Positions 3,550 through 64,000 of a stretch of 64,000 nucleotides of DNA are shown here, in pieces (the stretch's first letter is position 1; every line of letters starts with the position of its first letter). The position numbers were made by a program, and so were the translations under genes. The notes beneath the pieces are model-generated. The model was given only the letters and a program-made list of their open reading frames with translations, did no database searches and was not told the DNA's origin. The stretch spans positions 2,542,001 through 2,606,000 of the forward strand of contig JAPNXP010000013.1 in NCBI GenBank assembly GCA_028753945.1, in the 5' to 3' direction. This stretch comes from Hexactinellida sp. DTS-2022 (Eukaryota > Porifera > Hexactinellida).

Positions 3550-4096
3550 CTACGGAGATATTTTTTCAGCCATTTTAGCGAGAACAAACGTTATGTTGCT
3601 TTCATTACGGAACCACTCCAACCAACTATTAGGTAAATAAATCAAGGTTAACTTATCTTTCAAGTCCTGTGGAGAGTTGACCACAAACTTCTCTTTCTCT
3701 TGACTCTCGGATCTCAAGCTGAGTTGTAGTGTTTGGTTCATCAATTCTTCCTCTTTTGCATCGTATGAGAAGCGATTCCGTTTGTAAGGTTTGGATGAGT
3801 AATATGCTGGGCAGCCGGGCAGTAAACTTGGTACAGCGCCTTCTTTCAGCTTTGGCTTTGCCCGCGGTACATCTCCTCTTGGGACTTGGAAAGTGTAGTC
3901 TATGTTTTCTTTCTGAAAATGGTTGATACATACATAGACCACCTTCAGGTCACCGATATCCTCGCGACGAAGAGCGCGAGCGCATGTCCAGGCATGATTC
4001 AGGGTTGGTGGATTTTGAGGCATCTTGAACACAAGGAACATGGTCATCAGGGTTGTAGTTGCTCTTGCATCCGGGGACAGAACACGAGTTAGGCAT
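3550..4096 (-). pseudogene. THAP-domain exon of P-like transposase (broken)
   Basis: The natural start is the minus-strand ATG at 4096 (MPNSCSVPGCKSNY in this family). A small frame change then puts the rest in the frame that begins with VFKMPQNPP. The THAP C2CH zinc finger is visible: C-x4-C at the start, W of NHAW, and VCINHF. A proline-rich stretch ending LKEGAVPSLLPGCP follows, as in P-element transposases. THAP domains bind the transposon ends. This fragment stops before the RNase H-like catalytic core, which the element lacks. Confidence 0.75.
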
Positions 4097-4346
4097 GAAT
4101 AGAAGCTAATATGAATAAAATACCAAAGCGAAATTAAAAGGATGAGATTTACGTCAATAGAAGAGTTTGGAATAAAATATGATCAATAATTGTATATATT
4201 TCAAGAATATTTCTAATTAATGTGGTTGATTATGATTATTATTTTTGAAATTAAATATTGTGGTTGGATAAATATTACCATCTTCTCCTTCATCCTTGGT
4301 CCACATTTTCTAGGTTACTGTCAGGCCATATATAGAGTAGGCTATG

Positions 4347-14273: not shown

Positions 14274-14374
14274 TATATGGAACACAATTAATTTCATCTG
14301 AATTCCGTGATTGACTCTTACTATATCATTTTATTTATATTATGTAGATATTATTAGTTATAATTTATTATTCA

Positions 14375-23640: not shown

Positions 23641-23851
23641 TATCCATAGAATCTATTGACATAAATAGATTTTTTCTATGGCTTCAGGTGTGAAATTTAT
23701 GACGTCATTGTCACATTTTGTTATTTAAAATTGTTAATTAAGGCTATACAATAGCGATAGAAAAATAGACACTGAAGGTCTTGACAATGTATGCCGAGAG
23801 ACATAAGAATAAATTTCATGTCACACGTAATTCCAACATTACATAAATCAT

Positions 23852-24112
23852 GTGCCTCAAATCATTTCAGATCACAATGGTGGATATCGGTTAGAAGCTT
23901 GTAATAAGCTTGTGAGACGGTACCGCGAGAGGTTGTCTAGGAAATCTAGCTTTGAAGAAAACGTCAGAGATGTATTTATCAGGCTTATTTCCCATAGCGA
24001 TCCTATTTTGTCTTCATTTCGTAATAATACGAAAGAAGTCTTGGAGGTAGATGTAGCTAAAGAGCGATCAAGAGATTCTCGTAAATTCACTTATTATGAA
24101 AATCTACTGTAA
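23852..24112 (+). pseudogene. RAG1-like transposase, C-terminal part
   Basis: 86 residues: LEACNKLVRRYRERLSRKSS, then EENVRDVFIRLISHSDPIL and a charged tail. It aligns with RAG1 around catalytic Glu962 ([20 protein letters not shown]) and with the Transib ending of type E-A-x-x-K...R-K...SDP. The remnant ends in TAA, and AATAAA follows 8 nt later, so this looks like a true 3' end. It lacks the zinc knuckle of the copy at 54694. It lies in opposite orientation to the mid-protein piece at 24200-24841, so the gene has been rearranged. Confidence 0.75.
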
Positions 24113-24120
24113 TTGATATC

Positions 24121-24126
24121 AATAAA
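24121..24126 (+). promoter_or_regulatory. Poly(A) signal of RAG1-like gene
   Basis: Canonical AATAAA eight bases after the stop codon of the C-terminal fragment. Confidence 0.5.
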
Positions 24127-24199
24127 GTACTTTTTCCCCAAGAATTTGTACATAATAATAGGAAATTTAGATAATAAGGCTAGTATGGATATCATGTTC

Positions 24200-24841
24200 A
24201 ATTTTAGAAACTTTCTAATACAGATTGGGGTACCGAGTCAGTTAAAATAGCACCCAAAATATTAAAAAATTTGGTGATGTTTTCATGATTTTCTTGAGGA
24301 TAACTGTCAAAACCCAATAAATGATATCTTTGACTGTATCATCCTTATGTGTGAAACACCTCTGAACAACATTTCCTGTTGTTGAAGTTCCACCCTCGAC
24401 TTATCGTTATATTTATCTTTTCTTCGATTAGGTTGGTAATAAACCTCTTAGCACTCACACTTATAACGAAGTCGGTGACCATTTTTTAATAATAAGAACC
24501 AGCTGAAAGTTCTCAGATAAGCATGTAGAGGAGAAGCTGAAACTACATCTTTATCTGAGATTGGCTTGTGTGTTAAATTGAATCTCTGATTTGATGGTAG
24601 AGACAAAAATTCATCCTCCCACTCAACATCCTCAATATGCATCGTGAATTGACAAATTCATAGGATAGCAATTTTTACAAAACTAATGTCATGTATTTGA
24701 GCGAATGACACTGTACACAATTGGCAACTTGCTCCACCAGCGCCGCTTAAGATTTTTGCTAACTTCGTGTCGAAATGAGAACAAATTATATTGACCTCGG
24801 CATGACCATTGGGTAAACTCAAGTCGTTAGAATGCACAAGT
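24200..24841 (-). pseudogene. RAG1-like transposase, middle part (inverted)
   Basis: Read from 24841 leftward: LVHSNDLSL, KLAKILSGAGGASCQLCT (a C-x2-C zinc pair), EFLSLPSNQRFNLTHKP, then EGGTSTTGNVVQRCF and ITKFFNILGAIL. The order and residues match the copy at 54694-55605. They correspond to the RAG1 stretch from MKSSELMLEL through CTLC to NGNFARKL. At least two frame breaks and one stop are visible, so the copy is dead. It is about 0.6 kb from a CACAGTG terminus. Confidence 0.75.
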
Positions 24842-25019
24842 TGTATTTATTTATTCATTATGTTTGATATAAAACTAATTCTCTGTAAATTATTGGTAGA
24901 GCCATGGATATACCAAACCTACCGAAGTATGCGCACATTATACATGATGTATTTTATTAATTAGCATAAAATATAAAGTGATAAATATTAAATTATTAAA
25001 ATACAAAACTTTTACATTT

Positions 25020-27011: not shown

Positions 27012-28974
27012 GGTAAACGGAAATTTCGTCGACGGAAAATACGTCGAATCTCTTCGTCGAACGGAATATTCGTCGAACGGAAAATTCGTCGAAAGGAAAA
27101 TACGTCTAAAGGAAATTCGTTGAAACAATTGAACGGGATAAGTTTTGTCTTGTCACCTTTACAAACAATGGGTCATTTTGTTTGTGATTTAATTCACACT
27201 TTAACTTTGAGAATAGATTTGTATTCAAAATTACATACATTATAAAAAGATATTGTTTCGTTTGAACATAAAGTTCCACATTACAATTACATTACTTACA
27301 TTACAATTTTCAGAATAAGATGTCCGTTCCACAAAACATTTATATCGAAAGAATAAAAAGTAATCGAAACAAAGGAAAAGCTGTTGTAGAAGGTTTCATC
27401 TATACTTTCAACAAGACTAATGGTAATATCCAGTATTGGGTATGTGAACAACGAGGTAAATGCAGCGCTCGAATCAATACAACAGATGATTATATTATAA
27501 AACCAACAAACATTGAACAAATGGTGGAAGATCACATCCATTCACCCATTCCAGGACGTATCGAGATGCTAAAAAGCTAGTCTAATTTAAAAACAGCTGC
27601 AGTAAATTCAGAACAAAGCACAAGGGGTATTTTATCTACGACGTTAGAAACTATGCATACAACTACAATTAATGCATTTCCAAAATTTGAATCTGTAAAA
27701 CGTACTATTCGTTCCTACAAAAGCAGAGGAATTGAAAGTTGTGGGCATCCCGATAATGCTGGTGGTATAATCATTCCAGATAAGTACAAAATGACTCTTA
27801 AGGGAGAGGCTTTCCTATTATTTTATTCCGGATTTGGAGATGAGCGAAAAATTATTATTTTTGCCAGTCGCAAATTTTTATCCATTCTAAGTGAATGTCG
27901 TCATTGGTATTGCGATGGAACATTCAAAGTTGTACCAGACTTATTCTTTCAACTATATACAATCCATGCTGAGAAGGAAGGAATGGTCATACCTTGCGTC
28001 TATGCTTTACTATTAAATAAACAAGAGTCAACGTATGATAGTGTTTTTCAAAAATTATTGGAAATAGAACCTGCCTTAAACCCACTTACCGTAATGGTGG
28101 ATTTTGAAAAAGGGCTATCAATGCATTAGAGAATAATTTTATATCTGTCATAAGTGGATGTTTCTTCCATCTTGCCCAAAATATTTATCGCAAGGTTCAA
28201 ACAGAGGGATTAGCGGTAAATTATCGAGAAGATAACGAGTTTTCACTTAAAATAAAATGTTACCTAGTCTTGCATTTGTACCTGAAATGGACGTGATTGA
28301 TAGTTTTAATTTACTAATGCAGGACTTCCCTGAATCTGCGATGAACATAGGGAAATATTTCGAAGATAATTATATAGGTAAAAGATTACCAAATGGGAGT
28401 AGAAGGATTCCAATGTTTCCAATCAGGCTGTGGAACATGTATTCGAGAGTAAGCAATCACCTAGCTCACACTAACAATCATGTGGAAGGTTGGCATAATG
28501 CCTTTCAGTCAACGATATCATGCTCTCATCCATCTATTGGAAAGCTATTAACATTTCTACAACGTGAACAGTCATTGCAGGAGGCTATATTGGCAAAATG
28601 GGAGGCAGGTGAAGTCATACACCCGTCTAAACTAAGTCAAGTACGCAATGAAAGAGTTAAAAGTATCGTTTCAAACTATCATAATCGTGAGATATTAGCA
28701 TACTTAAGAGGGATAGCTCATAACTTTGTTTTGTGATTTCTTATTATAAACATAAATTATTCCTACTTTTCATTACCATTATCATTATCATATATTATGC
28801 ATCAATTAGATTATATACGCAATCAAGACATTAAATTCATTATTATATATTATGAATCAATTTGGTTGTTATAGGTATGTATATACGCAATCAAAACAAG
28901 TGCATGTTCGACGAATTTACGTTCGACGAATATTCCGTTCGACGTATTTTCAGTCGACGAAATTTCCGTGATTC
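27012..28974 (+). mobile_element. FLYWCH-type MULE transposon
   Basis: Imperfect inverted ends containing ACGGAAATTTCGTCGACGG and its complement, followed by cgtcgaacggaaaattcgtcgaa repeats. An exact 9-bp duplication gatcattat (27003-27011 and 28975-28983) is typical of Mutator-like elements. It encodes a FLYWCH finger plus MULE transposase on the plus strand and is inserted in a P-like THAP exon. Confidence 0.9.
27320..28736 (+). pseudogene. FLYWCH-MULE transposase (broken)
   Basis: N-terminal FLYWCH zinc finger (about residues 10-75: YWVCEQRGKCSARI, then DHIHSP). The MULE transposase domain begins at 27653: RHWYCDGTFKVVP (first catalytic Asp), TVMVDFEKG (second), a downstream C-x2-H (GCFFHLAQN), then NNHVEGWHN and LQREQSLQEAILAKWEAG in the C-terminal part. 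A TAG stop at 27578-27580 and two frame shifts (near 28115 and 28250) interrupt it, so it is inactive though nearly complete. The FLYWCH finger is commonly fused to MULE transposases in animals and probably binds the repeated cgtcgaa end motif. Confidence 0.85.
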
Positions 28975-31426: not shown

Positions 31427-34400
31427 TCATAGCATCCATTCATCTCCAGAGTCCCCACTTGAAAGGAAGTCTGAAACCTCCCAGTCGCTCTCGTTTACAT
31501 TGCTATCCGCGAACGAAATATCTTCTTCTTCAATCAGTAAAGGTTGTGCAGCAGCTTCTTGAATTACATCCATCTCATCGTCCGCTTGGTAAATGAGATT
31601 ACTATCACTGATTTCTTCACTGTTCCTCAACGTCATCTGGCTCATTTTTCGTCTCCTCTTACGCCTCCCTCTTTGCGGTTCTAGGATATCTTCGGCATCT
31701 GCATCTCCGTCATCTACATTTTTTAAATTACTTTTCCTTTTTCTCCTCTTGCTACTCAGCGATAGTGGTAACTGACTCCCGGTGAACCATACTGGCACAA
31801 CAAGTTTCTGCTTCTCGCACCATATCCATCCATAATTGCTGAAGGGTATGATTTCATTATTGATTTCAGTACACCGACGCCAGAAGTAAACTTGATAGTG
31901 GACTCGCTTGATGACTTGTACAACAGAATCAGGATCTGGTGGGAGAACCATCGACGACTTCACTCCCATTTCTTTGTACAAACGAATTCTGGTTTGGATA
32001 TAGGTTTCTTTCTGCTTTCCTGTATAAAGCATCGAACGAAGAAACTCCTTTGCACTTTCCACAATTTCCTCTGTGATAGACTGGTCTTTACCAAGATTCA
32101 TGAGTAAGTCTGCTTTACTTGGCGTGTTCAGGAGCTTTTTCATGACCTTTACTTTCCCCACATTAAACAAGTATGATGTTGTGTCGCAACCTGTTATAGC
32201 ATGCACCGCTGGAAGAGCGAGACATATCTTTGGGCCCAGAAATGTGCAGATTGTATTAATATCAACATATTTATTGTGATCATATTTCAGATACCACTTC
32301 TTCTGAACGTTGCACTTTTCGTATGCCCATATTAATAGAATGAGAACATCGGTATCTTTTGAGACCACAACAACATCATTATCATCCAGCGAAGCATGTA
32401 GTACCAGACGCGTGTCAGCTTCTTCCTGATTGCACTTGTAAAGGATGCTAATCTCTCCATCTCTTATGGTATACGTCGTGTCTCCAGCAGTCACTATATG
32501 TGGATGATGTAATAGGCTTATTCCCTCTCTCGTTTCAAGGTACTTTACAACGAGTCGTATAAGTTCTTCCTTATTCTCCCCGCTATTCAAGAAATCTTGC
32601 CATTTGCTACCTTGCAGCATGTGTTGATCAAACCCTTCTATTATAACTCTTGGACCTGACTCGCCCCTTTCCTTTCTCGTGCCTCCTTTTATGCTGTCTT
32701 CTTTGTAGGTGTCGTTTATGAGTCCCACTTGAATTGCTTCTGACTCTTTAGGTGGAGTTATGAACTGCAACAAACTCTTTAGCCATTCGCGGTAAGTTTT
32801 CTTTGGGCGCAAAGATCGAATTGCAGCAAGGCCGTCAATATACCATGAACAATTTTTGGGTGTGTTTTCGAAAATTGAACAAGATTCGTTCATCAAATAA
32901 TTTCTGAGCGATGCCTTATTTGACTGCCTTAGTGTTGATTCAGATGTAGCGTAGCCACAGCTAGTGGGATTGTTGTTATTGGGTATTGAAATGCCTCTTC
33001 AAGATTGACCGATTTTGCAACGATAAGACCGAAGGCTTGGCGATCTTCTTTCATTAGATTCACTGCTTTGGGGGTTGTTTTCTTCTTCTGACATCCGTTG
33101 TTAAGCTTCACTTTCTTGATTGGAGAAAAAAAGTCTTTGACATTGCATTCGAGTCTCTCGTTAACGAAGGTCTTGAACAAGACATTTCCAGTAGCGGAAG
33201 CATTGAGCATGTCCCTGACAACAGTTTTGTCAATTTCAACACCAGTTGGTAAACATTTTGGTGGGCTTTTGTCAAAGGGATTGACACCGTAACTTCTCAG
33301 CTGCCTCTTTAGACTCTTTACATGATCTGCATGATTTTGTTTGCCACCCTGACTCAACTCCTTATGAGTGGAGGACGTCTTAAGGATCAGTTGTTCCCTA
33401 TAGGTCTCCTGAATTTTACTGTGGATATGGATGGTTCTTATCCATATATTTACAGCCTTTGTGTTGGTACTGAAACCGGAACGGAAAGGTCCAGCAGTTC
33501 CTTTCGTTTCTTTATTGAACAATTTCGTAATTAAGTCACCGTGAATTGATGAAAATGGCTTACCTCCGATGCTACCCCCAAAACCTTTCGCCTTCAGTTC
33601 TCCAAAAGCTGGGTGGCTTTGTTCTTCCATGGAGCGTAAGTAGACATGTTGATAGCTACAATATCTTGCGTAGTTTTGGTGATTGAATGCAAAGACTTGA
33701 TTCAGCATATCCCTCTCAGATTGGAGGTGTACTGGTGTAGTTCTATGTTTCCTTCTCTAACGGCTGAAACCATTGCCAGCATGGACGAGACATCTTTGAG
33801 GTAAGAAATGGTCATGCTTGCTTCAGTGCTATCCTCAGCTCGAGTTACATCTGAAAGTAGGTTCTCAAATCCTGATGACTTCACAACATTGTCAACTGTG
33901 CTTGAACTAGGTTGTTTTCTTAGAGCAACGAGCGAAAACAGCAATTCAGGTTCTGTGATGGTATGGCCGGATGTAATTTCTTCGACTTTGAACTGAACAA
34001 CAGCGTCAAAGCATTCTTTATGAACTCTCATACTTCTATAGTAATGACGTCCTTCGAACGCTTGATCTGCAGACCCCGAGGCTATTATGCCTGAATCTAC
34101 ACACCACTGCTTGTATCCTCTACAATTATGGCGTTTGAAGAGCAATTTTTGTCTCACACGCAGTTGGTGAAATCCGCCCATTAGCAAGATTACATCTTTA
34201 TAGAGCTCCTTATTCTTCCAGAGGATATGGCACAATTTGGAATAAACCGCTTCATCAGAATGGACGTATATGTAGGGAATCTCTAGGTCTTGCATGATGC
34301 CCAGCAGGAAATCAAGGTATTCTTTACACACCGGATAATCGGGTGCCGCTGCAGTGACTGGCAAATATTCTTGGATGCACTTCTCTGTTACGAAATTCGA

Positions 34401-36235
34401 GACCATTTTATTGAAGGAAGTCCAAGAGCCGAGTAAGGGTAATTCTTCTCCTTTGTATTCCAACGGCAATGACCCTGCAGCAGACCATGCTATATTTTTT
34501 TTGAAGTGGGCATCAAGTTCCATGCACAAATTGCCATCATCTTTGTAATTTGTTATAAGCGAGGGTCCAACACGTCTTCCAATATAATAAGGCGCTGGAT
34601 TTGTCTGCTCATTATCTACGCTGTCACATATATCAAGTTGTCGCTCTACTTGAGATCCGATTTCTGAGATGGATTCTTTCTCCTCTTTACTTGGCAGTTG
34701 AAATAAAGTTTTGTTGGTGTCGTGAGTTGTGCCGGCACCTGTCAATGTGTCTTGCTTTCCATCGTTGTTGTCTATGGTACTGTGTGTGCAGATTCCTTTG
34801 CGCATGTTGGACAGAAGTAGCTGCCTTGAAGACACCATTCTTGACCAGGCCAGGTTCTGAGTTCTTATATCTTGATAAGATATGGTGTGATTGCATTTGT
34901 GCAACAAATTTGCAACCTCCTTGTTACCTGTCATTCTATTAATAACAAGCCCCATTACTGCTTGCTTTGGAGATGGATCTCTTGTAATAAGACTCTCCCA
35001 GTCGTTTGCTAGAGACCAAATCTTAATAGCTGTCGTGTGAGAACTTGTCACAGCATAGCCATATCGATTAATGTTGGCAAAATTATGCATGGTGTAGTAG
35101 ATGACGTTGTAAAGATCTTGCATTGGTCCACGATTCAGCATTTCTGTCAGTTCTTCAGGAGTCAAAGGCCATTGTTTTTGATGATCAGCAGATTTTTGCA
35201 ACTTTCGTCTAACCATCCTACTGAATGACCTAGCTAGGTCATCATCTCTCAATCCAGAGCCATGTAGAGCAGCAATTGCGTATTCACATGGATTTACGTC
35301 TGATGCATGTACTAATAGGTATTTTCCACTCGGAAAGAAAGATATTCTATCCTCGAATTCTTGGACGAGTTTCTGCTTCAACGTAGCTGTATGTTCGACA
35401 GCAGGGAATGATAGCCCCTGTTCATCACTCAATATTTTACATCTTCTAACAGTTCGTTGAGAAGGAATGCATTCTTGTCCCGAATAATTCTAGTTCGGAC
35501 TTGGTAACAAAAAGCTTGCAATACGTCCTGTTTCCTTTCTTTATTGAGATCATCATCATCAACTTGAAGTGGTGCAAGAGCAAACTTGATATAACAGGAC
35601 TGGTGATAGAAAACATCCAACGCAAAAATGTCGTGAGAGGGACCACTTAAGAGAATATCTAGTCGTTTTGCTGCTTGAAAGAAACGATGTGATGGATCTT
35701 TCATATAAATCCATTTCCTTTCTATGAGGCGTTTACTTGCGCTAAGAACAGAACATCGTCCAAGACCGCCTACATTGTACCTGCTATCATCACTGTCGCG
35801 CTTAGAGTCGCAGATAAAACAATGGCGTTTTCCTTGGAAAAGGTTTCTTGAAGTACATGCTTCTGAAATAGAAATTTCATTCTCGGTTTCAGAACTAACG
35901 AAAATTTCTTGTCTGCTGATATCAATAGTGCCGTAGCTTTTAATGTAGCGACCACTGTTACTAGCAAATTCAGTCCGACATGTTTTATGAATTTCTCCAA
36001 ACGACTCTTTCGCATCTTTAACTTTTCCAAAAACTTCTGTAAAACGATGTTTAGGCTCATGGGGTGGAATATTTATGCTCGCCCATGTTTCAGCGTCCAA
36101 TTTAAATTGCATCCAGCCTCTTTGTCCTAGATTTTGTTGGTTCTCCTTTGGTCCGATTGCACCATTGCATATAAGACAGGTATTATCAGTTTTTCTAGTT
36201 TCTGAACTCAGGAATGGTATTGAAGAGTGCATCAT
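31427..36235 (-). pseudogene. Academ-like transposase/nuclease gene
   Basis: About 1,590 codons in four collinear open stretches: 36235-35429 (268 aa), 35432-33702 (576 aa), 33708-32929 (259 aa), 32896-31427 (489 aa). N-terminal zinc-type pairs: CLIC ... CFIC with further Cys/His. Central motif LLMGGFHQLRVRQ ... SADQAFEGRHYYRSMRVH, a pattern I recall from large transposon proteins of cnidarians and other invertebrates. The last stretch carries the PIN/XPG-like acidic motifs: NQEEADTRLVLHAS, VVVSKDTDVLILL and AITGCDTTS, then a basic KRRKRK segment and an acidic tail. The stretches meet with one-base frame changes near 35430, 33705 and 32960 rather than at splice sites, so the copy is probably dead but young. 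Confidence 0.65.
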
Positions 36236-36403
36236 CAGTCAAGCGTATTGGGTGCAAACTTTATAGATATACATATAAAACTTATATATCAATTCCAACG
36301 AAGTGATCAGATATCTTCAGAAACGATTAGAAAAGAAAAAAAGGGGGCCCAAAAATAAAGCGACGACTTATAATGAGTTTATGGAAAAGTTTTGGCTTAT
36401 ATA

Positions 36404-48182: not shown

Positions 48183-48647
48183 TACGGCTAAATATCTCAC
48201 CGAGAAGGCCATGAAACGTGAAGGCAAGTTTCTAAATTCATTCTCAGCTAAACTATGCCTCCTATTGTTATTATTTGCATTGTATACAGTGTTCCCTCTA
48301 AGCCAATTTTTGGACCGGCCGGCCGGTCAAAACTGGATTTAGCCTGCCAGATGGCTGGTCAAATCGATTTTGAGGCCGATCAGCACACCATCCGGCAGGT
48401 TGTTAAAGAAAACACCATTCCGATATAGTTCAGCAAGCTCATATAAAAATGATTTCACACATCTAGGTAACCAATAAATTCTTCTCGACTGTTATTTGGA
48501 TTCAGTGTTCAATAATATGATAACATTATTTAACAACTGGACAACTCAATTAAAATATAAATGGGTATCTTTCCTAAACTTATACAACAAAATATTAATT
48601 AAACTAAATTTCCAGTCTTAATTATTTAGTTTGTTAATAATTCATTA

Positions 48648-50654
48648 ATGGGCAAGGTTACCAACTGGGTTAAAGAATTTGCAGCGTGGCTGGAGGTGAG
48701 AAAGATTGGTGGAACCATTGAGTATCACTGTAAATTATGCGCTGAAAGGGGAACTACTCTCATCTGGAAGGATTGGCGCGTGTGCACAGGGAATACTAAG
48801 AAAGAGAGATTCAATGAACACACCACGAACAAGCATACATCTCAATTGTCGATTGAATACACTTGCGAGAGGAACAGAGGTCGTCTACAAAAGAAAAAGG
48901 ATGATCATGAGCACGAGATTCATAAGAGCGTAGTTCCTCTTGTTAATATCGTGGCGCTTTGTATGACTGAAGAGCTGGCATTGATGAAAGTCAACCCAAT
49001 AGCTGAACTACTAGAGAAACACGAAGTTCATATTACACCTTTCTGGAGAGGGAAGAATTATCCTTTAGTTTTCGTCCGTTCTGGCGCGACTTTACAGTTT
49101 GAGGAAGTTCGTGAATTCGCGAAAGGTCCATTTGGACTTACCGTGGATGAGACCACCGACATTGCTGTTCAGAAGCAGATGATCGTATACGCTAAGGCCA
49201 AGCCTGCTGTAAGGTTTTTGGGTCTCATCAACATTGAGTCTGGATCAAGTCAGGGATTGCTTGAAGCCACTGTGAAACTCGTTGAAGATCGTGGGATAAA
49301 CATCTGCAACGTTACTTGTTTCAGCAGCGATGGTGCTTCCACCATGGTAGGAGCCAAACGAGGACTTAGGACTCGCCTGAACAAGTACATTTATAGCAAA
49401 CTTCATTTGGAATTTGATGAAAAATGCTGTCTGTTTTTCAGTGTTCACTGCGTCTGTCATAGAGTGAACCTTTCTGTCGACGATGTATTTAGGAAAGAGG
49501 GGGTGGAGCGACGAGTCTCGGAGCTTGCTGATAAGATTGAAATTGTGGGGAAGTACTGTTACAATTTCTTTTCCAGAAGTTCCGAGAGAAGGCGTGAGTA
49601 CAAGAAGCTCATCAGTACGTTTTCCAAGATTACTCTTCCTAGCAGTTGGTGTGACACGAGGTGGTTGAGTCGTTTCTCTGCAGTGTCGTGTGTTGTGGAC
49701 AATGCTAAAGCAATAGTAGAATGGGCATCCAGCACCGCAACCAAGTACTCTCATGAAGCGCAGTTCGTATTCTCGTCTCTAACAGACGAAGTTTTCATGC
49801 GCGATATGAAAGTGACGAGACAGGCTTTGCGAGTGCTTTACAGACTGTCTATTCGTCTTCAGTATAACTCTCAGTCTCCTTGGCAGTCTTATCTAATCAT
49901 CCAGCGTGCGGTGGGCTTGATGGAGGATGTTGAAGAGGAGTCGGAAGGTGCTGGACAGGCACTCTCCAAAGAACTCAAGTTAAGAACGGAAAGGCGTTTT
50001 CCGCCTGAAGAAGGCAAACTCTATGCTATTTACGATTTTCGTATTTTGAAAAACTCTGATGGGTCGGAACAGCATCATTTCCCAAGGAACTAATAGAGGA
50101 AAGTTTAAAGCATCACCTCTCCACGTTTTACCGGTTCTACAAAGATTTTGGGATTTTTTTCTCTTGTTCTTAAGATCTTGTCGCGTATTCACAGACACCT
50201 TTGTCGTGACGCCCACCCCCGAGACCTCTACGATTTATTCAATGTGGCTACAACGCTGACTCTCGAAGAGACAGATCAAAAAGTTATCGACGTTTTCGTC
50301 AGCATCCTTAGCTCTTTCTCTTCGGACAGTGCTGTTGCGGAACGCGGATTCAGTGCGCTAAACAGGATTCGAACAAAAACGAGAAATCGTCTATGCGGTG
50401 ACAACCTGGAGGCTGTAATATCCATGCGTCTGAATCCGTTGCCGTCAAGTTCCGACATTGTGACCGACTGGAAGGCGTCGAAGGAGAGGAGACGTCGACA
50501 GGTAGCTAGCAAGCCAAAGACAGACAATCGCCACAATTTTCACGAGATGTCCATTGCTGAGTTGAACGAGCTCGATGACGAAGAATATAGTGAAGAACTA
50601 CGAGAAAATGAAGATAATTTGCTAATATACTCAGTAAACATTTTCAGAATATAG
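48648..50654 (+). pseudogene. hAT transposase (ZNF862/Zaphod-like), one break
   Basis: The first stretch, 48648-50093 (481 aa), starts with a zinc-finger-like region (YHCKLC ... FNEHTTNKHT). It then has LTVDETTD (first catalytic Asp), CFSSDGASTMVGAKRG (second Asp) and SVHCVCHRVNL (the hAT C-x2-H), followed by DTRWLSR. The second stretch, 50148-50654, contains the hATC dimerisation region FSSDSAVAERGFSALNRIRTK with the catalytic Glu, and RNRLCGDNLEAVISMRL. A stop at 50091-50093 with a frame change separates them; otherwise all hAT hallmarks are present. hAT transposases cut and paste elements with 8-bp duplications, so a close relative could have mobilised the hAT MITEs here. Confidence 0.8.
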
Positions 50655-51639: not shown

Positions 51640-52230
51640 AGTTCGGAAGAAGGGAGAATATCTATCTGATTTTCATGAAGAATTAGAAGCACAGTCCTCT
51701 AAGAAAAGTGTTTACGTACCTGACACATTCGTTTATGATTTGTTAAAGGATGCTACAGCTGGATCAAAGGTAAGAACAGAGCTATAATTTACCTTACCCA
51801 CTATTTTTGGAGGATTTTTATTCAACTACCAACTATTTTATAGGAGGGAAGTTCTCTATACTCTAATGGAATATTCATGACAACAGTTTCCAGAATTAGG
51901 AGCATCACGTTCCTATGATTATGTTATTAAAGTTTTGTATGGAGTGGTAAGTGTAATCCATCAGTGCTGGTATATAAGTTGTTAGCAGCCGTGTGAGCTG
52001 AGCTGTTAACAGCCTCCTTCTGGTTGTTAACGACTGTCAGATGTTTCCAGCCCTGGATATAATAAATTCAAAATATCAGAGATTAGTTTGCACAGAAGTA
52101 AATGATGAGTTAATAATGTTCTCATTTAGGCAATGAAGTATATAGGAATGAAGTCACTTTACGCACCGTTAGATGATTCTCTTTTTGATTTGTTTCACCT
52201 TTCGACCGATACCCCATCATTTAATATCCC
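51640..52230 (+). other. Possible small exons upstream of OTU gene
   Basis: About 51650-51770 is open as YLSDFHEELEAQSSKKSVYV and ends at a donor-like aaag|gtaaga. About 51843-51948 lies between a tttatag acceptor and a gtaagt donor, but contains a stop in its most plausible frame. A ctcatttag acceptor is at about 52130. They suggest an old multi-exon gene, possibly the 5' part of the OTU gene. Confidence 0.3.
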
Positions 52231-52969
52231 TCTATTCAATGGAAAAAGATAAAAGTATCATGTTGGGAATTGAATATCAAGCAGAAATTGAACAAGACGC
52301 AAGCCTAAATAGACAGAGTTTAAAGACTTACCAACCTTGGAGGTATATTGATAACCAAGGTGATTGTAGTTGTCTCTTTAGGTGTTTTTCAAAAATACTT
52401 ACGGGCAGTGAGAAGCATCACCTCAAGTTGCGAGGAGAGATATGCGGTTATAAGGTCACACAAGGACGCAACACTACAGGTTGGTACTTTCAACAGGTTC
52501 AATCAACTACACCTTCAAAATACTTGAGAGCAAGTGGCATGTTAATGAAAACGATTTGGGGTGTTGATGTCGAATTGATGGCTCTATCCACATTGCTGAA
52601 GACGGAAATATTTGTTGCAATCGTTTTACTTAACAGAGGATACTCTTATACTTGAAATAAGGTGGTCACGTACAGGGCTGGCGGAAGAGGGGCGGCCTGG
52701 GCCGCCCCACTTTTTCTGTGATTTTTTGGTACTTTAAAATTATGCGGGTGTGGTTCGTGATTCTATTATACAAGGCCGCTCCACCTCTCACGAGCTTCCG
52801 CCTTCCATGCTCACGTATCAGAGCTTGTAATGACACACAATCAACGAGCTGTATATATATTTCAAACTTTAAGGAGTATTTTGAACCTGTGGGCAAAATG
52901 ATAAACAGCACGACTCTAACATATTTCCCTCTAATCCAGTGCGATCAAGTAGTATATTCAGTTGAATGA
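52173..52969 (+). pseudogene. OTU-domain protein remnant
   Basis: WRYIDNQGDCSCLFRCFSK, then LTGSEKHHLKLRGEI matches the N-terminal part of OTU cysteine proteases (D-x2-C-LFR with Cys nucleophile). WGVDVELMALSTLLKTEIFV is the OTU middle motif. After a hAT MITE (52673-52809) the frame resumes as CIYISNFKEYFEPVGKMINS and ends at 52969. The usual C-terminal catalytic His is not evident (QCDQVVYSV), so activity is doubtful even before the insertion. OTU proteins remove ubiquitin, and OTU genes also occur as passengers in transposons. Confidence 0.65.
52673..52809. mobile_element. hAT MITE in OTU gene
   Basis: 137 bp, left CAGGGCTGGCGGAAG and right CTTCCGCCTTCCATG, with an 8-bp duplication gtcacgta/ctcacgta (one mismatch). 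Confidence 0.75.
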
Positions 52970-54290: not shown

Positions 54291-54365
54291 GCATTATAAC
54301 GAAAATGTTAACAATTTATGAATTAAATTAGGTTGGTTGTTTCCTATTACTTATAGTTATGAATT

Positions 54366-54640
54366 TAGTAGCCAACATATGAAATTATAATACGCAGTAT
54401 AATTTACGTCAATAGCTAACACTACCTTACCTGATTACGTTAACAAAAATAATATAAACTAAATATTTTAAACTAAATTTGTTGTTAAGTTAGCTAAGTT
54501 TGTTACCTATGACTTAAAGTAAACTTTGTATAACCCACATACGAAAATTATAATACACAGTGTCAATTAGGTCAATTGCCAGCACTTACCTTATCTGATT
54601 TCGATTAACAAAATAATACAAACAAAATGTTAAAAGTACC
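54366..54640 (+). repeat. Direct duplication upstream of RAG1-like gene
   Basis: About 110 bp repeated (54366-54480 and 54532-54640): attataatacgcagt/attataatacacagt, then gtcaatagctaacact/gtcaattgccagcact and cttacctgatt/cttatctgatt. On the minus strand each copy contains a donor-like gtaag. Confidence 0.6.
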
Positions 54641-54693
54641 TCCTCCCAAAGCTCAACATTCTCCTCTGCAATTCCAGATAGCACATGGACTAG

Positions 54694-56017
54694 ATGGGTT
54701 TGGAAGTCACACTGTATACAATCAATCAAAAACAAATACAGATACAAAGTAATTCATCTTATTCTGCTTCAAGCCTATACAGATTACTAGCTTTAGTGGT
54801 CGGGAAATTTGGAAAATACCTGTCCCGATTCTCCTTTCACTCAGCGTCCGATTTTCCTTCTAGCTGCGAAAGAAAGTCAAGTTACATAAAGCAATTCATG
54901 AGCGATTTGATCAACCCGGACACAGATCTAATGAAGAGTGAAGAATTAATTCTTGAAAGTAATGAGCAGGTCCGTGTTGACATTGTTCGATCTATGTTTG
55001 ATGGGAAAATCGCATCCATTCTATCTGGCGCAGGTGGGGTAAGTTGCCAATTATGCACCGCTGCCCACAAAAAACTAAAGGATCCTGATTAGATAATACA
55101 GGGATTTCCTATTAATAGATATATCACAGAAGCGATTCAACTTTTTGGCGAAATAGAAGATAGCAATTCTTTCTTCTCACTTCCTCCAAAAGAACGGTGC
55201 AATTTAACTCACGAACCAACCTCATCAATAAATATCACCATTGCATTCATACATTGCATTTTCAGGTGGTTCAACCTGCTAGTCTATCATTTAAACAGTG
55301 GTAAACTTACATGATCACCAACCTCATTAGCAATAAATAAATTGATGATATTTGTCAGAACGCTAGTGGAAGAAAAAACAGGATTGAGAATAGACCAGCC
55401 TGATCCGAGAGGAGGCACAACCTCTACTGGCAGTGTTGCGCGTCGAGCATTTTCATTCGAATCTAGTTACATTGAATGTGTATTGTCAGTTGTTAGAACT
55501 GAACATAAAGAAACACTCTCAAAGCTACATAGCCAGTTGTCCGCTATTCTTAGAATAATAAACACTGACAGAATTATTGATACTGAAGAATTTGGGGATC
55601 TGTGATCGTTGAGTCTCAACCTTATCTCATGATCGTTGAGTCTCAACCTTGGGAGAGCATTACATCTACATTGCATAGCGTATTAGCTCACTCAGAATAA
55701 AATTTGAAAGAGTTTAACCATGGCCGTGGCTTGAAAAGTTTTCTGAGAAAGGATCCGAGGTATGCAACAAGCTACTAAGAAAGTATAGGGAGAATCTCGC
55801 AAGGAAATCTTCGTTTTAAGATAATGTGATGGAAATTTTCGTGAGATTGGCTTCGGAAAGTGACCCCGTACTAAATCTATATCGATCAAATTTAGTCTGC
55901 GAAAGGTGTGGGGAACACGGTCACACAAGAAGAGCTAAGTGTTGTAGAGATAATTATAATAATGCGTTAGAATCGTCCATTGATAAAATTGTTGATTCAC
56001 TCATAATTATTTCTTAA
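54694..56017 (+). pseudogene. RAG1-like (RAG/Transib) transposase remnant
   Basis: Collinear pieces of a RAG1-like core. At 54694-55311: LMKSEELILES, MFDGKIASILSGAGG, then the zinc pair SCQLCTAA, FFSLPPKERCNLTHEP and FRWFNLLVYHLNSG, with one TAG at 55090-55092. At 55342-55605: LRIDQPDPRGGTTSTGSVARR ends in the counterpart of RAG1 NGNFARKL; then HSQLSAILRI. At about 55630-56017: WESITSTLHSVLAHSE, FSEKGSEVCNKLLRKYRENL (the RAG1 Glu962 region), FVRLASESDPVL, and a terminal CERCGEHGHTRRAKC, a C-x2-C-x4-H-x5-C knuckle like that in RAG1-like transposons. The N-terminal region with the first two catalytic Asp residues is not recognisable. Stops and a 24-bp tandem duplication (55605-55660) show it is dead. 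Transib is the main alternative family. Confidence 0.8.
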
Positions 56018-56046
56018 AAATTTGAGATTATTAATTATAAGAGATT

Positions 56047-56192
56047 ACTTATATGGAGCTCAGTTACTGGTACCTGAAATGCCATATAAGGAGCTGTTTC
56101 AATTCTAAAAGACCCATAAGCTCAGAAATTAAATTTAGACATAAATAAAAACCTACTTCAGTTACCAGTAACTCAGCTCCATATAAGTATTT
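56047..56192. mobile_element. Short MITE with ~35-bp inverted repeats
   Basis: acttatatggagctcagtta and its complement taactcagctccatataagt flank 146 bp, 30 bp after the end of the RAG1-like remnant. Flanking duplication is not clear. Confidence 0.65.
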
Positions 56193-56690
56193 TGTAAATA
56201 TAATAGCTAAATAATAATTAAAATATTAGTTTAGGGAGTAGTTATTATTTATCAGAAATACCAAGTTACATAGTAGTGAAAATTAAACCGGATCAATCTA
56301 AGACTATTGGTATTGGGTTGTTCCTGGTCAAGTGATCTGGTTTAACTTGGGTTTCGATTTAGCTGAGTGATTGTAGTTTTAACGGGGGGTGAAGTGGAAC
56401 GATAAAATGTACATAGAGCCGCTATTGTATCCATCGTGTTCATACTTCGATAACATCCTGGAGTGAAATAATATACCGTATATAAAATAAATATGGGTTA
56501 GTAATACTATATAGAGAAGGAAAATTATTTGATTAAAAAAAATCAAATCATTCTAAAAATGAAATCGAACAAATCAATCATCAGATCATTGAATGTAACT
56601 CAAAGATCAATCATAAATCATTGATTTGATTTGAAAGAAAATCATCAAAATAATTTTTGCAAAGCCCTGCTCACAATCAATAGTGGATCA
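56193..56690. other. Intergenic; hAT-like end
   Basis: No gene. aaaatcatcaaaataattt to tttgcaaagccctg at about 56640-56668 has the look of a hAT right end (reverse CAGGGCTTTGCAAAAAT) following an aatca-rich tract. Confidence 0.4.
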
Positions 56691-56695
56691 TTTAA

Positions 56696-56960
56696 AACCA
56701 ACGTGTCCGACGTGTCCGCATCATTAATGTGCATGTTCTATTAAATTTTCAGATTTAATCTTTTATAGGGTGTAAATTATGTCCGATTAAGTGAAATTTC
56801 GCGGTCGTAAAATGTGACAATCACGTCATAATTTGGCGAGTGTAAACTTCAACTTGTCGGGCGCCAAAATTATCCCTATATGCCAAAAATCACATTGGAT
56901 CCGTCCAGTTTGTAATTCAATTCAGAAATTACAAACAAGTACGTATATATCTGGGCTTCA
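56696..56960 (-). mobile_element. Degenerate Helitron fragment
   Basis: Minus-strand homology to the Helitron body (gtgtccgcatcattaatgtg, aacttgtcgggcgccaaaat, gccaaaaatcacattggat). Both ends lost. Confidence 0.6.
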
Positions 56961-57075
56961 TTTAGGGGATGGCGAGGGATGGCTCCCGCCATCCCTTGGT
57001 AATAACTCGCCATCCGTTATTCCTGAAAACCATAATTTTGCCATCCCTTAAGTTAATGTCTAAATAGGAGCCTGT
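56950..57075. mobile_element. Short hAT-like MITE
   Basis: Imperfect inverted ends CTGGGCTTCATTTAG and CTAAATAGGAGCCTG around repeated gccatccc/ggatggc, in a TA-rich flank. The exact duplication cannot be read. Confidence 0.5.
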
Positions 57076-57895: not shown

Positions 57896-60800
57896 TTAAT
57901 TGTGTGTAAATTTCTTTGCCTTTCGCGAATTATCTCCACGAGCAGCTATGTCTGAATTGAAATTTTTAACTTTGTTTGATATCAAACAATTCGCCATGAC
58001 GGAATACAAGTGCTTCAAAATATCCCAATAAGCAGTGCTACAAGAGGGACATGTATTTCTCCATGTTTCACTATCATTATTTTCTATATATGTAATACCT
58101 AGAGAAACCAATATATGTCGAGAAGCTCCTTGGACCAATACGGTCATTAGTGAGTTATTTCCATCAATAGTAACAAAAATTCTCCATAAAACAACTACTG
58201 CATCTATAATACTATCTGAAGGCCACTTGAGTGATCCTCTGTCAACGATTTCCAGATAGGTATACTTTGAATCAGGTAGTTGTTCGAACAGAAATTCCTT
58301 GTCGATTGTGAGGAAATTCAGGCATGTGGAACATTTCGAAGATCTCATATAAAATTTGTGCACAGTATAACCAGCCATAAAAACTAGTGCTTGCAATGTT
58401 TGGGAGTCGTACATGATAGTTTCTAATTCTGGAAGTTGGTTTAGCAATTCTTCTATGGTTTCAGATGAAACAGTTGAAGACACTAACTCATCAGGACAAT
58501 TTGAGAATTTTCTGATGAAGTCCCTAACAGAAATCTGTTCTGCACTAGTTTGATAAAGTTTAAGTATACTGGATAGTTTGAGTCTACGCTCTGACTCTAG
58601 AATTTGGCAGTAGGAAATATGGTAGTTAGCACCTGACATCTGTCTGTATAGTCCAAAATGATGTTCTAACGGGTCATTCTGAAGAAAAGAAGTTAAGACG
58701 TAAGAAAATCCGCAATTATTTGTTAGATGGTTAACTATATGTGGTAGTGCTTGACATGTATGCTTTAAACTAGTGAATGTTTGGCGGGATAAGGATGATT
58801 TATTTGATTTTGAATTTGCTTCCCAAGCTTCAAGCCAAAATACAACTCGCTCTAAGAATAAGAAGCGAGGATCTGCATTTACAAGAGGATTAGAAATTTC
58901 ATCTCTCAAACGGATGCCCTTCTGAGGTGTACTAACATTAAAAATTTTCCAGATGTTAACAATAATAGAGATAAATTCTGCTGATTGCGTTTTAAAATTA
59001 TCAATTCGCGAATTGTTCTGAATTTTTAAACCAGCGCTAGTTGACTCGCTAAAAACCTTTAGAGCAAGTTTTACATTCTGACGCTCAAAAGTTGAAGGCC
59101 AGCATGCTTTTGCTGTCAATTGATGTGCGATTTTGGCGAAAGAGTGTTGCTCTTGTCTGTAAAGTAATCGTACATCTTCAAAACACGCTTTGAAATTCGT
59201 AAGAGGGTATTTCGTAGAGATGTTAGAAATTTCTTCAAAATTAGGAAAAACAAAAGTGTGGTTGAAATCTTTTGTATTAATCCAATTATTGCGAATAGTT
59301 TTCAAAATATGAACAGGATCAAAGAATAGGAAAAGGTTCCTGCATAGCCTACTCTATATATGGCCTGACAGTAACCTAGAAAATGTGGACCAAGGATGAA
59401 GGAGAAGATGGTAATATTTATCCAACCACAATATTTAATTTCAAAAATAATAATCATAATCAACCACATTAATTAGAAATATTCTTGAAATATATACAAT
59501 TATTGATCAGATTTTATTCCAAACTCTTCTATTGACGTAAAATCTCATCCTTTTAATTTCGCTTTGGTATTTTATTCATATTAGCTTCTATTCATGCCTA
59601 ACTCGTGTTCTGTCCCCGGATGCAAGAGCAACTACAACCCAGATGACCATGTTCCTTGTGTTCAAGATGCCTCAAAATCCACCAACCCTGAATCATGCCT
59701 GGACATGCGCTCTTCGTCGCGAGGATATCGGTGACCTGAAGGTGGTCTATGTATGTATCAACCATTTTGAGAAAGAAGACATAGACTACACTTTCCAAGT
59801 CCCAAGAGGAGATTGTACTTTTACTGAAGTAGCGCGGGCAAAGCCAAAGCTGAAGGAAGGCGCTCTACCAAGTTTACTAACTCGCTGCCCAGCATATTAC
59901 TCATCCAAACCTTACAAACGGAATCGCTTCTCATACGATGCAAAATAGGAAGAATTGATTAACCAAACACTACAACTCAGCTTGAGATCTGAGAGTCAAG
60001 AGAAAGAGAAGTTTGTGGTAACTCTCCACAGCACTTGAAAGATAAGTTAACCTTGATTTATTTACCTAATAGTTGGTTTGTGTGGTTCCGTAATGAAAGT
60101 AACATAATGTTTGTTCTCGCTAAAATGGCTGAAAAAAATATCTCAGTAGATTTGTACCTTGAAATCAATGCTTATTTATCCACCTCAGCCTATTTTAGTG
60201 GACAGAGTATATCCGTTCCCATTGCTTAGTGACATCCGAGAAATTGAATCTGTTTTGCAGGAACTTGCTTTAAAATACAACTCTAGTTCTTATTGTGATT
60301 ATCCCCTTAAGTTCGGTTGTGCATATATAATTCAGAAAGAACAAGTTTATCCAAGTTAGCTCCTCATTTGACTATGGAGTCATGTTTTCCGTCTTGCAAT
60401 GAGCGTCAAAATGTCAAACTGGTTTTGAAAGTCGTTAACGAATTAACTATATCTGCGCTAACTATCCAGAATATAGAAATAATACTCCGGAGTTTGTTGA
60501 TACCCTTCTTACTGTTTGGTAATTATTCAACCTTAACACACCATTTAAAGGAATACGTTTGAACGATAATTTCTCTAGACCTTTGACTTTTAATGACGAG
60601 CGATTTCTATTTTTGACTCGTGTAGTTTTGGTTAGATGCTTGGCAAACTTTACCAGAAAAAATTGGCAAACTGAGTAAACAAACATACACCAGTTTTAGA
60701 CATGCTTGTATTGCCTTACCACAAATTACCAATCATTTGACTCAATCTTGTGGCTTTACATAGTATGTGTTGTCCTCCCTTCTACAGACGGATCCCTTGG

Positions 60801-62511
60801 AACACCATTTCGGTCTATACCGTATGATGTCGAGTTCTAATTATCACATCTCCTATCTTCAAATCCTTGAACCGAGCGTCGACTTAAACTTTCTAGCATA
60901 ATCAAACATATTTACTGACCAACAAGACACTTCCTTTCAATCTATTCAATCATTTGTCAAGTCATTTTCTTCTCCGTATAGCGTATTCCACTACTGATGG
61001 TGAGTTCAATTTGGAGCCATTTCTTGATGAGATTAATGATTTATCAACAATTGATTGTGGTTCACAGTTGCTTCAACCATTAGCCTTTATTGCAGGCTAT
61101 ACTGTCCATCAGTACCTGAAACAAACAAAACCGTGTCATGTCTGTACATATGCTAACAGTTGATAAAGAATTTCTCCTTTATTTAGACCTGGACTCTCAG
61201 TATAAACTTCTGCAGCTAACGGACCGTGGCGAACTTAAATGTCCATATGAGCCAGTTTTAAATTCCATATTTGTTATATGGAAGACCTTTAGTGCCATCG
61301 AAAACAATAAAGAGCTGATGGCGAAGCTTGTAAGTGGACCTTCTAGGAAAATACTAGTTGAACTCACGTTGATGTATTTGGAAGATAGCGATAATCGTGA
61401 TCCAAGTATTTGGAAGTCTACTTGTATTAGCTGTGGTATGTTTAGTTGGAACATCTTATCGAAGCTAGTCGTTATCGCAGCGAATTGCTTTCTTGCAAAC
61501 AAAGTTAAGAATTATAACTCGCTGTGTCTTTCAAAAAGTATAGAAAGCGTAAATTTAAGAAATTCTCTTAATTATGTGTCTACTTATTTGTATTTACCAT
61601 GATTTGTATTACTCTGTTATTCTTATTTCTATTATGTAGTTAAGTGTGTCGTGTGTCACTGCTAGAGCCAGAGAGAGAAAGAGGAGAGAGGAAAGAAAGC
61701 AAATAATTGTGTATTATTTACTGTATATTAATATTATAAATTGTACTGTTTGTGTTTATTATTACTATTAAATTATGAAAATCCAATCACCGTTGTCATT
61801 ACAGCTAATACTAATCACGGGCTAGCAGGGCTGAGTTATGTTTACGACATAGAGACGTATAAAGAACTTAGTAGTTAAATATAGAAAACATCAAAAAATT
61901 AAAATTTCCCATCTTCTTGTGCATCCCTGGTACATCTACTGTCAGGCCATATATAGAGTAGGCTATGGTTCCTGGTAATGTCGACCGGGTGAGGAACGAT
62001 AGGAGTGAGAGTTTTTTTATCGGGAGAAAACTGTTTATATATTTTAACATTTTGAGGATAATTATCAGAACAAAGTACATGGACATAGAGACCGCATTTT
62101 TCAACGTCGCAAATTACAGATTTGATAGTAAGATATAAATTCGTTGCTTGGGTAGATGCTAGGGGAACTAGGCGAACAATCGATGACCATTTTTTGTGCA
62201 GACTTGACACCATAATTGCTAAAACCGTCCGTATAGGATCTTCTGTGTCCAAAGAAGGTGCAATAATTTTGCCTCCTTTATAAGTTATATCGGATTTGAC
62301 ATGGACTTCATCTATTTGAATAATTACATTCTTTTGTTGAGTTGAGAATTCACAAGCCACGTTTTTCAAGAAAAGAAAGTATTCGCTCTGTAGTCCAATA
62401 GGATGGTATAATCTCTCTAGTGTGTTAAAATGTGGAAGAGATAGACAGTCAAGAGACTGTAAATAATTATAGCATGCGCGAGAATAAATATGAGCCTTGA
62501 GCGATAATATC
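57896..62511 (-). CDS. P-like transposase, exon 2 (interrupted)
   Basis: Begins near 62511 after a tttattttag acceptor: LPHFNTLERLYHPIG, then the RNase H-like core start VIIQIDEVHVKSDITYKGGK (first catalytic Asp) and LCSDNYPQNVK. At 61968 it is cut by the nested element and resumes at 59335 in the same frame as FFDPVHILKTIRNNW, the P-family FDPPH-type motif. Then follow the alpha-helical insertion and LEHHFGLYRQMSG (Glu region), FMAGYTVHKFYMRSSKCSTC and a C-terminal part to the stop at 57896. One extra base near 62460 shifts the first 17 codons. Apart from that and the insertion the frame is open, so the copy is young. Confidence 0.8.
59343..61967 (+). mobile_element. P-like element nested in P-like transposase gene
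   Basis: 2625 bp with perfect inverted repeats of about 31 bp (CATAGCCTACTCTATATATG start) and an exact 7-bp duplication gttcctg (59336-59342 and 61968-61974). Same subfamily as 1831-4346, which also has a 7-bp duplication. It carries THAP and C-terminal transposase remnants on the plus strand, but the catalytic core is deleted. Confidence 0.9.
59594..61602 (+). pseudogene. P-like transposase, core-deleted
   Basis: From ATG at 59594: MPNSCSVPGCKSNYNPDD, a small frame change, then the rest of the THAP finger (VCINHFEKEDIDYTF), ALPSLLTRCP, a stop at 59946, and DKLTLIYLPNSW. At 60160-60360 comes a linker; then at about 60358 it jumps directly to LAPHLTMESCFPSCNERQNV, which in the intact relative lies C-terminal to the catalytic core, so the RNase H segment (IDEVHVK to FDPVH) is absent. 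Fragments LEPFLDEINDLSTIDCG, FIAGYTVHQYLKQ and WKTFSAIENNKELMAKLVSG finish it. Such deletion derivatives are known in P elements and may act as repressors. Confidence 0.75.
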
Positions 62512-62758: not shown

Positions 62759-62898
62759 TAGATGTAAAAAAATCAATAACAATGTCATAAGGAAGTAGTG
62801 AATATACAATTATATAATGTTCAAAGTTTGCGGTAAACACGTGTTTATAATATATTTGTGTCAATTAAATCGTTAAAAAAACTAATTAATTGGCATAC

Positions 62899-63819
62899 CT
62901 GCGTTAGGATATTGTATCTTCGCCTATTCTTTGCGACTGTGGCATTCTCGATCTGACATAAAATAAATTGGAGTCGAGGGAGATAAGTAGAAACGCTAAC
63001 TTTCTCTTTTAACTCTGATTCTGTGTCATCAAGACTAAATTTCTCAATATTATCCATTGCCTTGATAATGTGCTTTTTCGCTGAATCAATGTGATGTTGC
63101 ACTATATCTGTGTGATGATCATCATTTAGGTATGAGTAACATTCACTGAGAAGGACTTCAATTTGGCGTACATCTGTCAAGCATTTGATGGATAGGGGGG
63201 TAGGTTGGTTATGGCAAAAAGCTTTGGTTCCCAAATGAGAATTAATTGTTAGGCTGGCTTGGATTGTGATCTTAGAATTTTCTATATGTGGAAGTATGAA
63301 ATGAACAAAATTATCACAGGTAGACCAAAGTAACCAGTTGTTGAGAGAAATGAGATTAAGCTTTTCCTTTAATACGTCTAAAGTATCTATACTAAACCTC
63401 TCCTGAGCAACTTCAGCAGTTTGCTGGCTCTCTTGAATTGCCTGAACAAAAAACTGAGCTTCTTTCGAGTCCATTTTCAAACGTTTACTCGACGTAGACG
63501 ATGAGGGTATTGAAAGATACTTAGGACATCCAGGTAAGATACAAGGAATGGCGCCTTTAAGAAGCACTGGTACCTTTCGAGGAATTTGTTGAATGGATCC
63601 ACTAGGCCCAGAAGGTACAGAATAAGAACGACAGATGTCTTCATCACGAAAATGCTTCTCACATACAAATGTGTTTGGGTGAATATCTTCTAGATATAGC
63701 GCACTAATCCATTTCTGTCTCAGTTCAGGCGGTTCATTGGGGAGTTTGAACACGGTTACGTGCACATCAGTCGAACTGTAGTTCCCTTTACAGGCAGGAG
63801 CTGAACATTTGTTAGGCAT
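62899..63819 (-). CDS. P-like transposase, exon 1 (THAP domain)
   Basis: 307 codons from ATG at 63819 to a donor CAG|gtatgc at 62898. An intact THAP finger spans about residues 1-85: MPNKCSAPACKGNY (Cys5, Cys10), FKLPNEPPELRQKW, and FVCEKHFRDED (last Cys and His). Next come the VPVLLKGAIPCILPGCPKYL motif shared with the other P-like proteins, a Ser-rich stretch and a helical segment likely to dimerise. THAP binds the transposon ends. Exon 2 continues after an intron of about 390 bp. Confidence 0.85.
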
Positions 63820-64000
63820 AGAAGTATGCTAATTACAGATGATTGAAGATAAGATATAAATCAGTAACACTAATTCAATAAAAACAAATAAATGTCTAGC
63901 AATTTCACTTCTACTACGTAAATTAAATCCAATACAGTATAAACAATTCTAAGTATTAGTATTTCAAGCTACTAGAGTTATTAATACTAATGGGTAGATA
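63820..64000. other. 5' flank of P-like transposase gene
   Basis: AT-rich, likely promoter and 5' end of the outer P-like element. No inverted repeat reached. Confidence 0.4.

Follow-up and report, generated by a model that had tools for sequence, protein, structure and literature searches.

The decayed reading frame at positions 54627 to 56017 of the forward strand, in the 64,000-nucleotide stretch of glass sponge DNA that was analysed here (the window), is in all probability (roughly 80%) the remains of a Transib-superfamily transposase of Subgroup I-like make-up and not of a RAG1L element; more exactly, it would be a 5'-truncated, dead copy of a cut-and-paste DNA transposon. The copy is untranslatable and inactive now: it is disabled by four frame changes and by five stops within its blocks, with a sixth directly after the third block. 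The sequence-only reading had described it as a RAG1-like transposase remnant in an invertebrate genome. It is indeed a remnant of the RAG1/Transib superfamily, the group that gave rise to the antibody-gene recombinase RAG1, and its closest named relatives point to an invertebrate host, but it does not belong to RAG1L in the strict sense.

The layout of the relic was established by tblastn with P0002, a 724-residue relative whose residues 263-722 align (E=1e-171) over positions 54627-56008 as five overlapping blocks of 57.5-78% identity, all on the plus strand. Block 1 (54627..54815; aligned at 54627-54827 to residues 263-329 of P0002, 66% identity) is the part of the RNase H fold that holds the Asp equivalent to D600 of RAG1, and has one internal stop. 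Block 2 (54818..54880; aligned at 54812-54880 to residues 325-347, 78%) lies in another frame and reads PDSPFTQRPIFLLAAKES, with a Glu that aligns to RAG1 E662. In the third frame, block 3 (54886..55602; residues 339-592, 69%) carries MKSEEL, the D708-equivalent Asp, the ZnC2 pair CQLC, a long ZnB loop and GGTTSTGSVARRAF; two stops interrupt it and a third, TGA at 55603-55605, follows immediately 3' of it. Block 4 (55623..55742; residues 597-636, 57.5%) comprises ZnH2 (TLHSVLAH, 55668-55691) and a linker, and block 5 (55742..56017; residues 633-722, 77%) the E962-equivalent Glu, the C-terminal domain and a CCHC knuckle, each with one internal stop; the natural stop of the frame is TAA at 56015-56017. 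Where the frame shifts from block 3 to block 4 there are two direct copies of a 21-nt repeat (55603-55623 and 55630-55650, plus strand), for which we saw, by eye, no counterpart in the proteins of the relatives. The remnant had been thought to start at 54694, within what is in fact block 1; the open reading frame 54694-55092 was rejected as the start of the protein because its opening 64 codons lie in a different frame from the transposase. Taken as single-ORF pieces, 54694-56017 gave no RAG1 or Transib match against Pfam and PDB; the matches of this kind came from a read-through joined with X across frames, or from relatives.

Absent from the relic are the first 262 residues, that is, the N-terminal third including the NBD-like part. 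A search upstream turned up no convincing N-terminal remains (the match at 54636-54698 is block 1 itself), and a direct duplication of ~149 nt (54323-54467 and 54485-54631) precedes block 1. The 5' part of the element is lost, and no element ends could be recognised, nor any CAYWGTG in 56018-57000. Just 3' of the relic there is a near-perfect hairpin (56046-56189) with 33-nt arms that are 94% complementary; this inverted repeat was considered as a pair of element ends and rejected, since it does not bracket the relic.

Despite this decay, the catalytic and metal-binding residues can be read. In mouse RAG1, by PDB alignment numbering, the catalytic residues are D600 in SCDGMG, D708 in TGYDEK and E962 in ASEGNE; their counterparts in the relative P0009, aligned to mouse RAG1 by profile, are D282 (GLDG), D385 (SMFDGK) and E639 (SEEGSE). 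The DDE triad and the ZnC2 and ZnH2 residues all have aligned counterparts in mouse RAG1 and do not vary in any of the 13 relatives aligned. In the relic itself the triad is made up of Asp 54693-54695 (GLDG), Asp 55000-55002 (SMFDGKI) and Glu 55757-55759, and the zinc pairs of CQLC (55045-55056) and the two His of TLHSVLAH. Thus the two Asp regions that had been called missing or unrecognised, those of D600 and D708, are both legible. The four RAG1 blocks and the terminal knuckle that had been named are indeed present and in order when aligned by tblastn with P0002: the MKSEEL block starts at 54931 and is followed by CQLC, GGTTSTGSVARRAF (55411-55452), SEKGSEVCNKLLRKYRENLARK (55742-55807) and the knuckle CERCGEHGHTRRAKC (55898-55942), which has the spacing Cx2Cx3GHx5C. 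A chance resemblance of short motifs was a legitimate concern as long as the earlier reading relied on motifs alone; it is refuted by the best block, which scores 352 bits against 22.3 for the top match that the same protein gave in 100 versions of 54501-56100 shuffled by dinucleotide, and its probability is practically nil.

The relic has a large family behind it. At E<=0.01, a search of 5.8 billion proteins returned 86 homologues, the best of which (P0001) has 73% identity across 85% of the query. The 19 of these that carry a species name are different proteins of a single species, Oopsacas minuta (class Hexactinellida), and are 45-70% identical to the relic; they belong to the same family, are known as predicted genes alone and bear one of two automatic names, “Dna-mediated transposase” and “V(D)J recombination-activating protein...”. 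A protein search with a mixed profile likewise gave no named match outside Oopsacas among the best 120 of 147. Of the relatives that we aligned, 13 in number, ten are 706-725 residues long in unbroken frames (the other three are 631-654), from which we infer that the sponge-type family has probably been active recently. The proteins of these relatives start ~100 residues ahead of the NBD-like block, and in the 13 scanned there was no Pfam match to a RING-type or N-terminal zinc region (the relic itself has no N-terminus); at E<=0.01 the only Pfam family found was RAG1, in 12 of the 13 and weakly (best E 5.6e-6). Among genome contigs, viral contigs, plasmids and phages, no relative that could serve for rooting was confirmed. 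Two distant Transib-type proteins, P0085 and P0086, both encoded on contigs shorter than 2 kb, are 25% identical to the relic, with a loop of 72 residues and no knuckle seen, and perhaps represent a further lineage.

Among solved proteins the closest match is HzTransib (PDB 6pqn), which we take to be the Helicoverpa zea transposase. A profile of the 13 relatives scores 141 bits against it, compared with 62.9 bits (less than half) against the RAG1L of amphioxus ProtoRAG (PDB 6b40) and 45-53 against RAG1 cores; P0012 alone gives 78 bits for HzTransib, 45 for RAG1L and at most 20 for RAG1, and the relic compared directly gives E=1.3e-8 for HzTransib and E=1 for amphioxus RAG1L (one Transib and one RAG1L reference). 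The sponge-type family and HzTransib also have the motifs DGK, GTT..GN, SEExSEA.NK and SDP in common: at the D708 site both have DGK, in contrast to the DEK of mouse RAG1 and amphioxus RAG1L, from which the GTT of GTT..GN is also absent. We built two maximum-likelihood trees, both unrooted, of 25 and 30 rows, with 21 and 26 sponge-type proteins of the 152 fetched and with HzTransib, RAG1L and RAG1 as outside rows (P0085 was added in one). Support is 100/100 for the split between RAG1L with RAG1 and HzTransib with the sponge-type proteins, and 99/99 for the pairing of the relic with P0001 within the sponge-type group; branches are long, and both RAG rows have an unequal amino-acid make-up. The trees show that the sponge-type family does not nest inside RAG1/RAG1L. 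Its side of the root is left undecided by them: because they are unrooted, with three outside references, long branches and a skewed RAG composition, a position “inside Transib” and one at the “stem of RAG1L” are not separated. A RAG1-like identity, as first proposed, was to be refuted by a placement with Transib, and such a placement is largely what was obtained, with some affinity to RAG1 persisting in the weak Pfam RAG1 matches, the loop and the knuckle.

It is these last two traits that make the family Subgroup I-like. Tao et al. (2022, PMC9435367) divided Transibs into two subgroups, of which Subgroup I, the one nearer RAG1L, retains a CTT1 tail and also that part of the zinc-binding domain which binds RAG2 (the alpha11-alpha12 region), while Subgroup II is without the alpha11-alpha12 region and has a different type of tail, CTT2; Subgroup I elements were proposed as intermediates between Transib and RAG1L, and, going by the order in a figure legend, they seem to include ctenophore elements and one from Hydra. 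By inference, HzTransib belongs to Subgroup II. We counted loop length as the residues from the second Cys of ZnC2 up to the LH that follows, motifs that 80 of 152 proteins hold together (72 are without one of them). The loop is 66 residues in the relic (counted to the His of its degraded LH block), 65 in mouse RAG1, 61 in amphioxus RAG1L 62-68 in the sponge-type proteins (n=78) and 72 in P0085 and P0086, compared with 31 in HzTransib; by loop length alone, we judge the alpha11-alpha12 region to be kept in the ZnB of the relic. As a trait, the loop is better established than the knuckle. The relic's knuckle is close to the tail motif of RAG1L, given as Cx2Cx3GHx4C by Martin et al. (2020, PMC7204232), but its last spacing is x5 where that of CTT1 is x4, and several lineages of the same group have no knuckle. 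By pattern, 46 of the 152 proteins reach the C-terminal block; the knuckle is found in 27 of these under a relaxed pattern and in 19 under a strict one, so that 19 are without it even by the relaxed pattern. Knuckle-less proteins form a clade in the tree (P0088, P0092, P0093, P0095 and P0096), and three more (P0056, P0089 and P0090) diverge close to the base of the sponge-type group. The knuckle may thus have been lost repeatedly or, since it is absent from several lineages near that base, gained inside the sponge-type family, in which case it would not have been inherited as CTT1.

Could the relic nevertheless come from a true RAG1L element, i.e., a RAGL transposon with both RAG1L and RAG2L? 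The knuckle, a loop as long as that of RAG1 and RAG1L, and the weak Pfam matches in the relatives all speak for it. The amphioxus element has the DDE triad, the zinc pairs, the loop and a knuckle (CTT*) in common with the family and, in addition, an N-terminal zinc region and a RAG2L partner (PMC7204232); the sponge relatives, with their short N-terminal extension, show no sign of the former by Pfam, and none of the 19 ORFs scanned in the window outside the relic matched RAG2 or a kelch family (the relic's element being truncated). Among solved proteins HzTransib leads by far, its motifs at the D708 site and at GTT..GN are those of the family, the relic falls outside the RAG1/RAG1L pair in the trees, and long loop and knuckle are both found in Subgroup I Transibs as well (PMC9435367). 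We therefore consider a RAG1L element quite improbable. Another reading would place the family as a stem lineage on the RAG1L branch, nearer RAG1L than the insect Transibs and predating the gain of RAG2L. It would account for the loop length and for the knuckle of many members, which are common to the family and RAG1L and not found in HzTransib, and Subgroup I Transibs have been put nearest RAG1L (Tao et al., 2022). Yet overall similarity favours HzTransib, the loop could be an ancestral trait, the knuckle could be confined to some members of the family, and the tree is unrooted; we think such a position unlikely. The same low odds hold for the broader picture that it suggests, of glass sponges with a large, recently active, RAG2-free family of stem-RAG1L type in which the RAG2-docking loop is present and a CTT1 tail occurs in many members.

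That the relic is a domesticated host gene, or a recent pseudogene of one, and no transposon copy at all seems very unlikely, even though RAG1-like genes have been reported as domesticated in sea urchins (PMC9885083). The 19 Oopsacas proteins speak against it, as do the stops and frame changes of the relic, the other transposon debris nearby and a second, different Transib-type relic 30 kb away (23738..24930), with its core on the minus strand (24930-24243) and its E962 block on the plus strand (23738-24070); by tblastn, the best summed scores of this second relic are with the knuckle-less relatives P0018 and P0088. 

The window also contains other transposon debris. Pieces of P-element/THAP-type transposases lie at 3550-4182 (-), 57896-59353 (-), 59541-59948 (+), 61120-61602 (+), 61899-62510 (-) and 62845-63828 (-); five of the six have a THAP or TNP-like Pfam domain and the remaining one, 61120-61602, was assigned by eye, as was a near-identical THAP segment common to 3550-4182 and 59541-59948. 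There is a MULE transposase piece at 27581-28129 (+), an ORF at 48630-50093 (+) with a sub-threshold DUF4371 match that looks hAT-like by eye, and a piece with an OTU-protease domain at 52173-52655 (+). An interspersed repeat of ~250 nt at 56703-56945, perhaps a MITE, has five further copies, 75-76% identical, near 1.3, 7.1, 20.8, 25.4 and 47.7 kb, and a partial one near 21.2 kb. Two other features were noted in the window: an intron-free, single-frame ORF of 593 residues at 14348-16129 (+) with SMAD MH1 and MH2 domains by Pfam (SMAD4-like by eye), and four long overlapping ORFs in different frames at 31427-36238 (-), perhaps a single broken large gene or an unknown element, of which three were scanned and none rose above the Pfam cut-off.

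Reading the relic, then, as a Subgroup I-like Transib copy, the intact element would have encoded a DDE enzyme of the RNase H fold, whose ZnC2/ZnH2 zinc-binding domain included a long loop like that of RAG1 and whose C-terminal part carried a CCHC knuckle. In Martin et al. (2020), Transib and RAG are described as cleaving element ends at the heptamer by nick and hairpin, with target duplications of 5 bp, Transib elements as single-gene elements without RAG2, and the CTT* tail of amphioxus RAG1L as binding end DNA. By homology, the sponge transposase would bind paired ends, cut at the heptamer by a nick and then a hairpin, and insert the element with 5-bp target duplications and no involvement of RAG2; the knuckle, if it is a CTT1, may touch the DNA beside the heptamer. 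Like the Subgroup I Transibs of PMC9435367, the family has an NBD-like block, the DDE triad and a long loop in ZnB, and many of its members bear a knuckle of CTT1 type; it differs in that part of it is knuckle-less, and glass sponges are not named in the main text of that paper. Subgroup I Transibs have asymmetric ends, of which none were seen in the relic, which has no recognisable element ends.

We found no description of a sponge Transib or a sponge RAG1L in the literature searched (supplements, Repbase and most subscription papers, where a sponge Transib may be on record, lay outside its scope). By term counts, the main text of the O. minuta genome paper (PMC10280926) contains neither “Transib” nor “RAG1,” and the parts examined of the two glass-sponge genome papers, this one included, give no account of a Transib-type family. 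The kind of transposon is known; its occurrence in glass sponges is probably new. By itself, the relic is ordinary transposon debris; more useful is the family behind it, which is apparently present in many copies in glass sponges, with unbroken frames of ~720 residues in some of them. The order in which Transib and the RAG transposon arose is a question posed in PMC7204232, and the sponge-type sequences could help to test these two orders against each other and to ask whether the RAG2-docking loop predates RAG2. Should the family after all prove to be a stem lineage of RAG1L, both this loop and the CTT1 tail would be dated before the capture of RAG2, in early-branching animals, and the knuckle-less members would show the gain or loss of the tail inside one host group.
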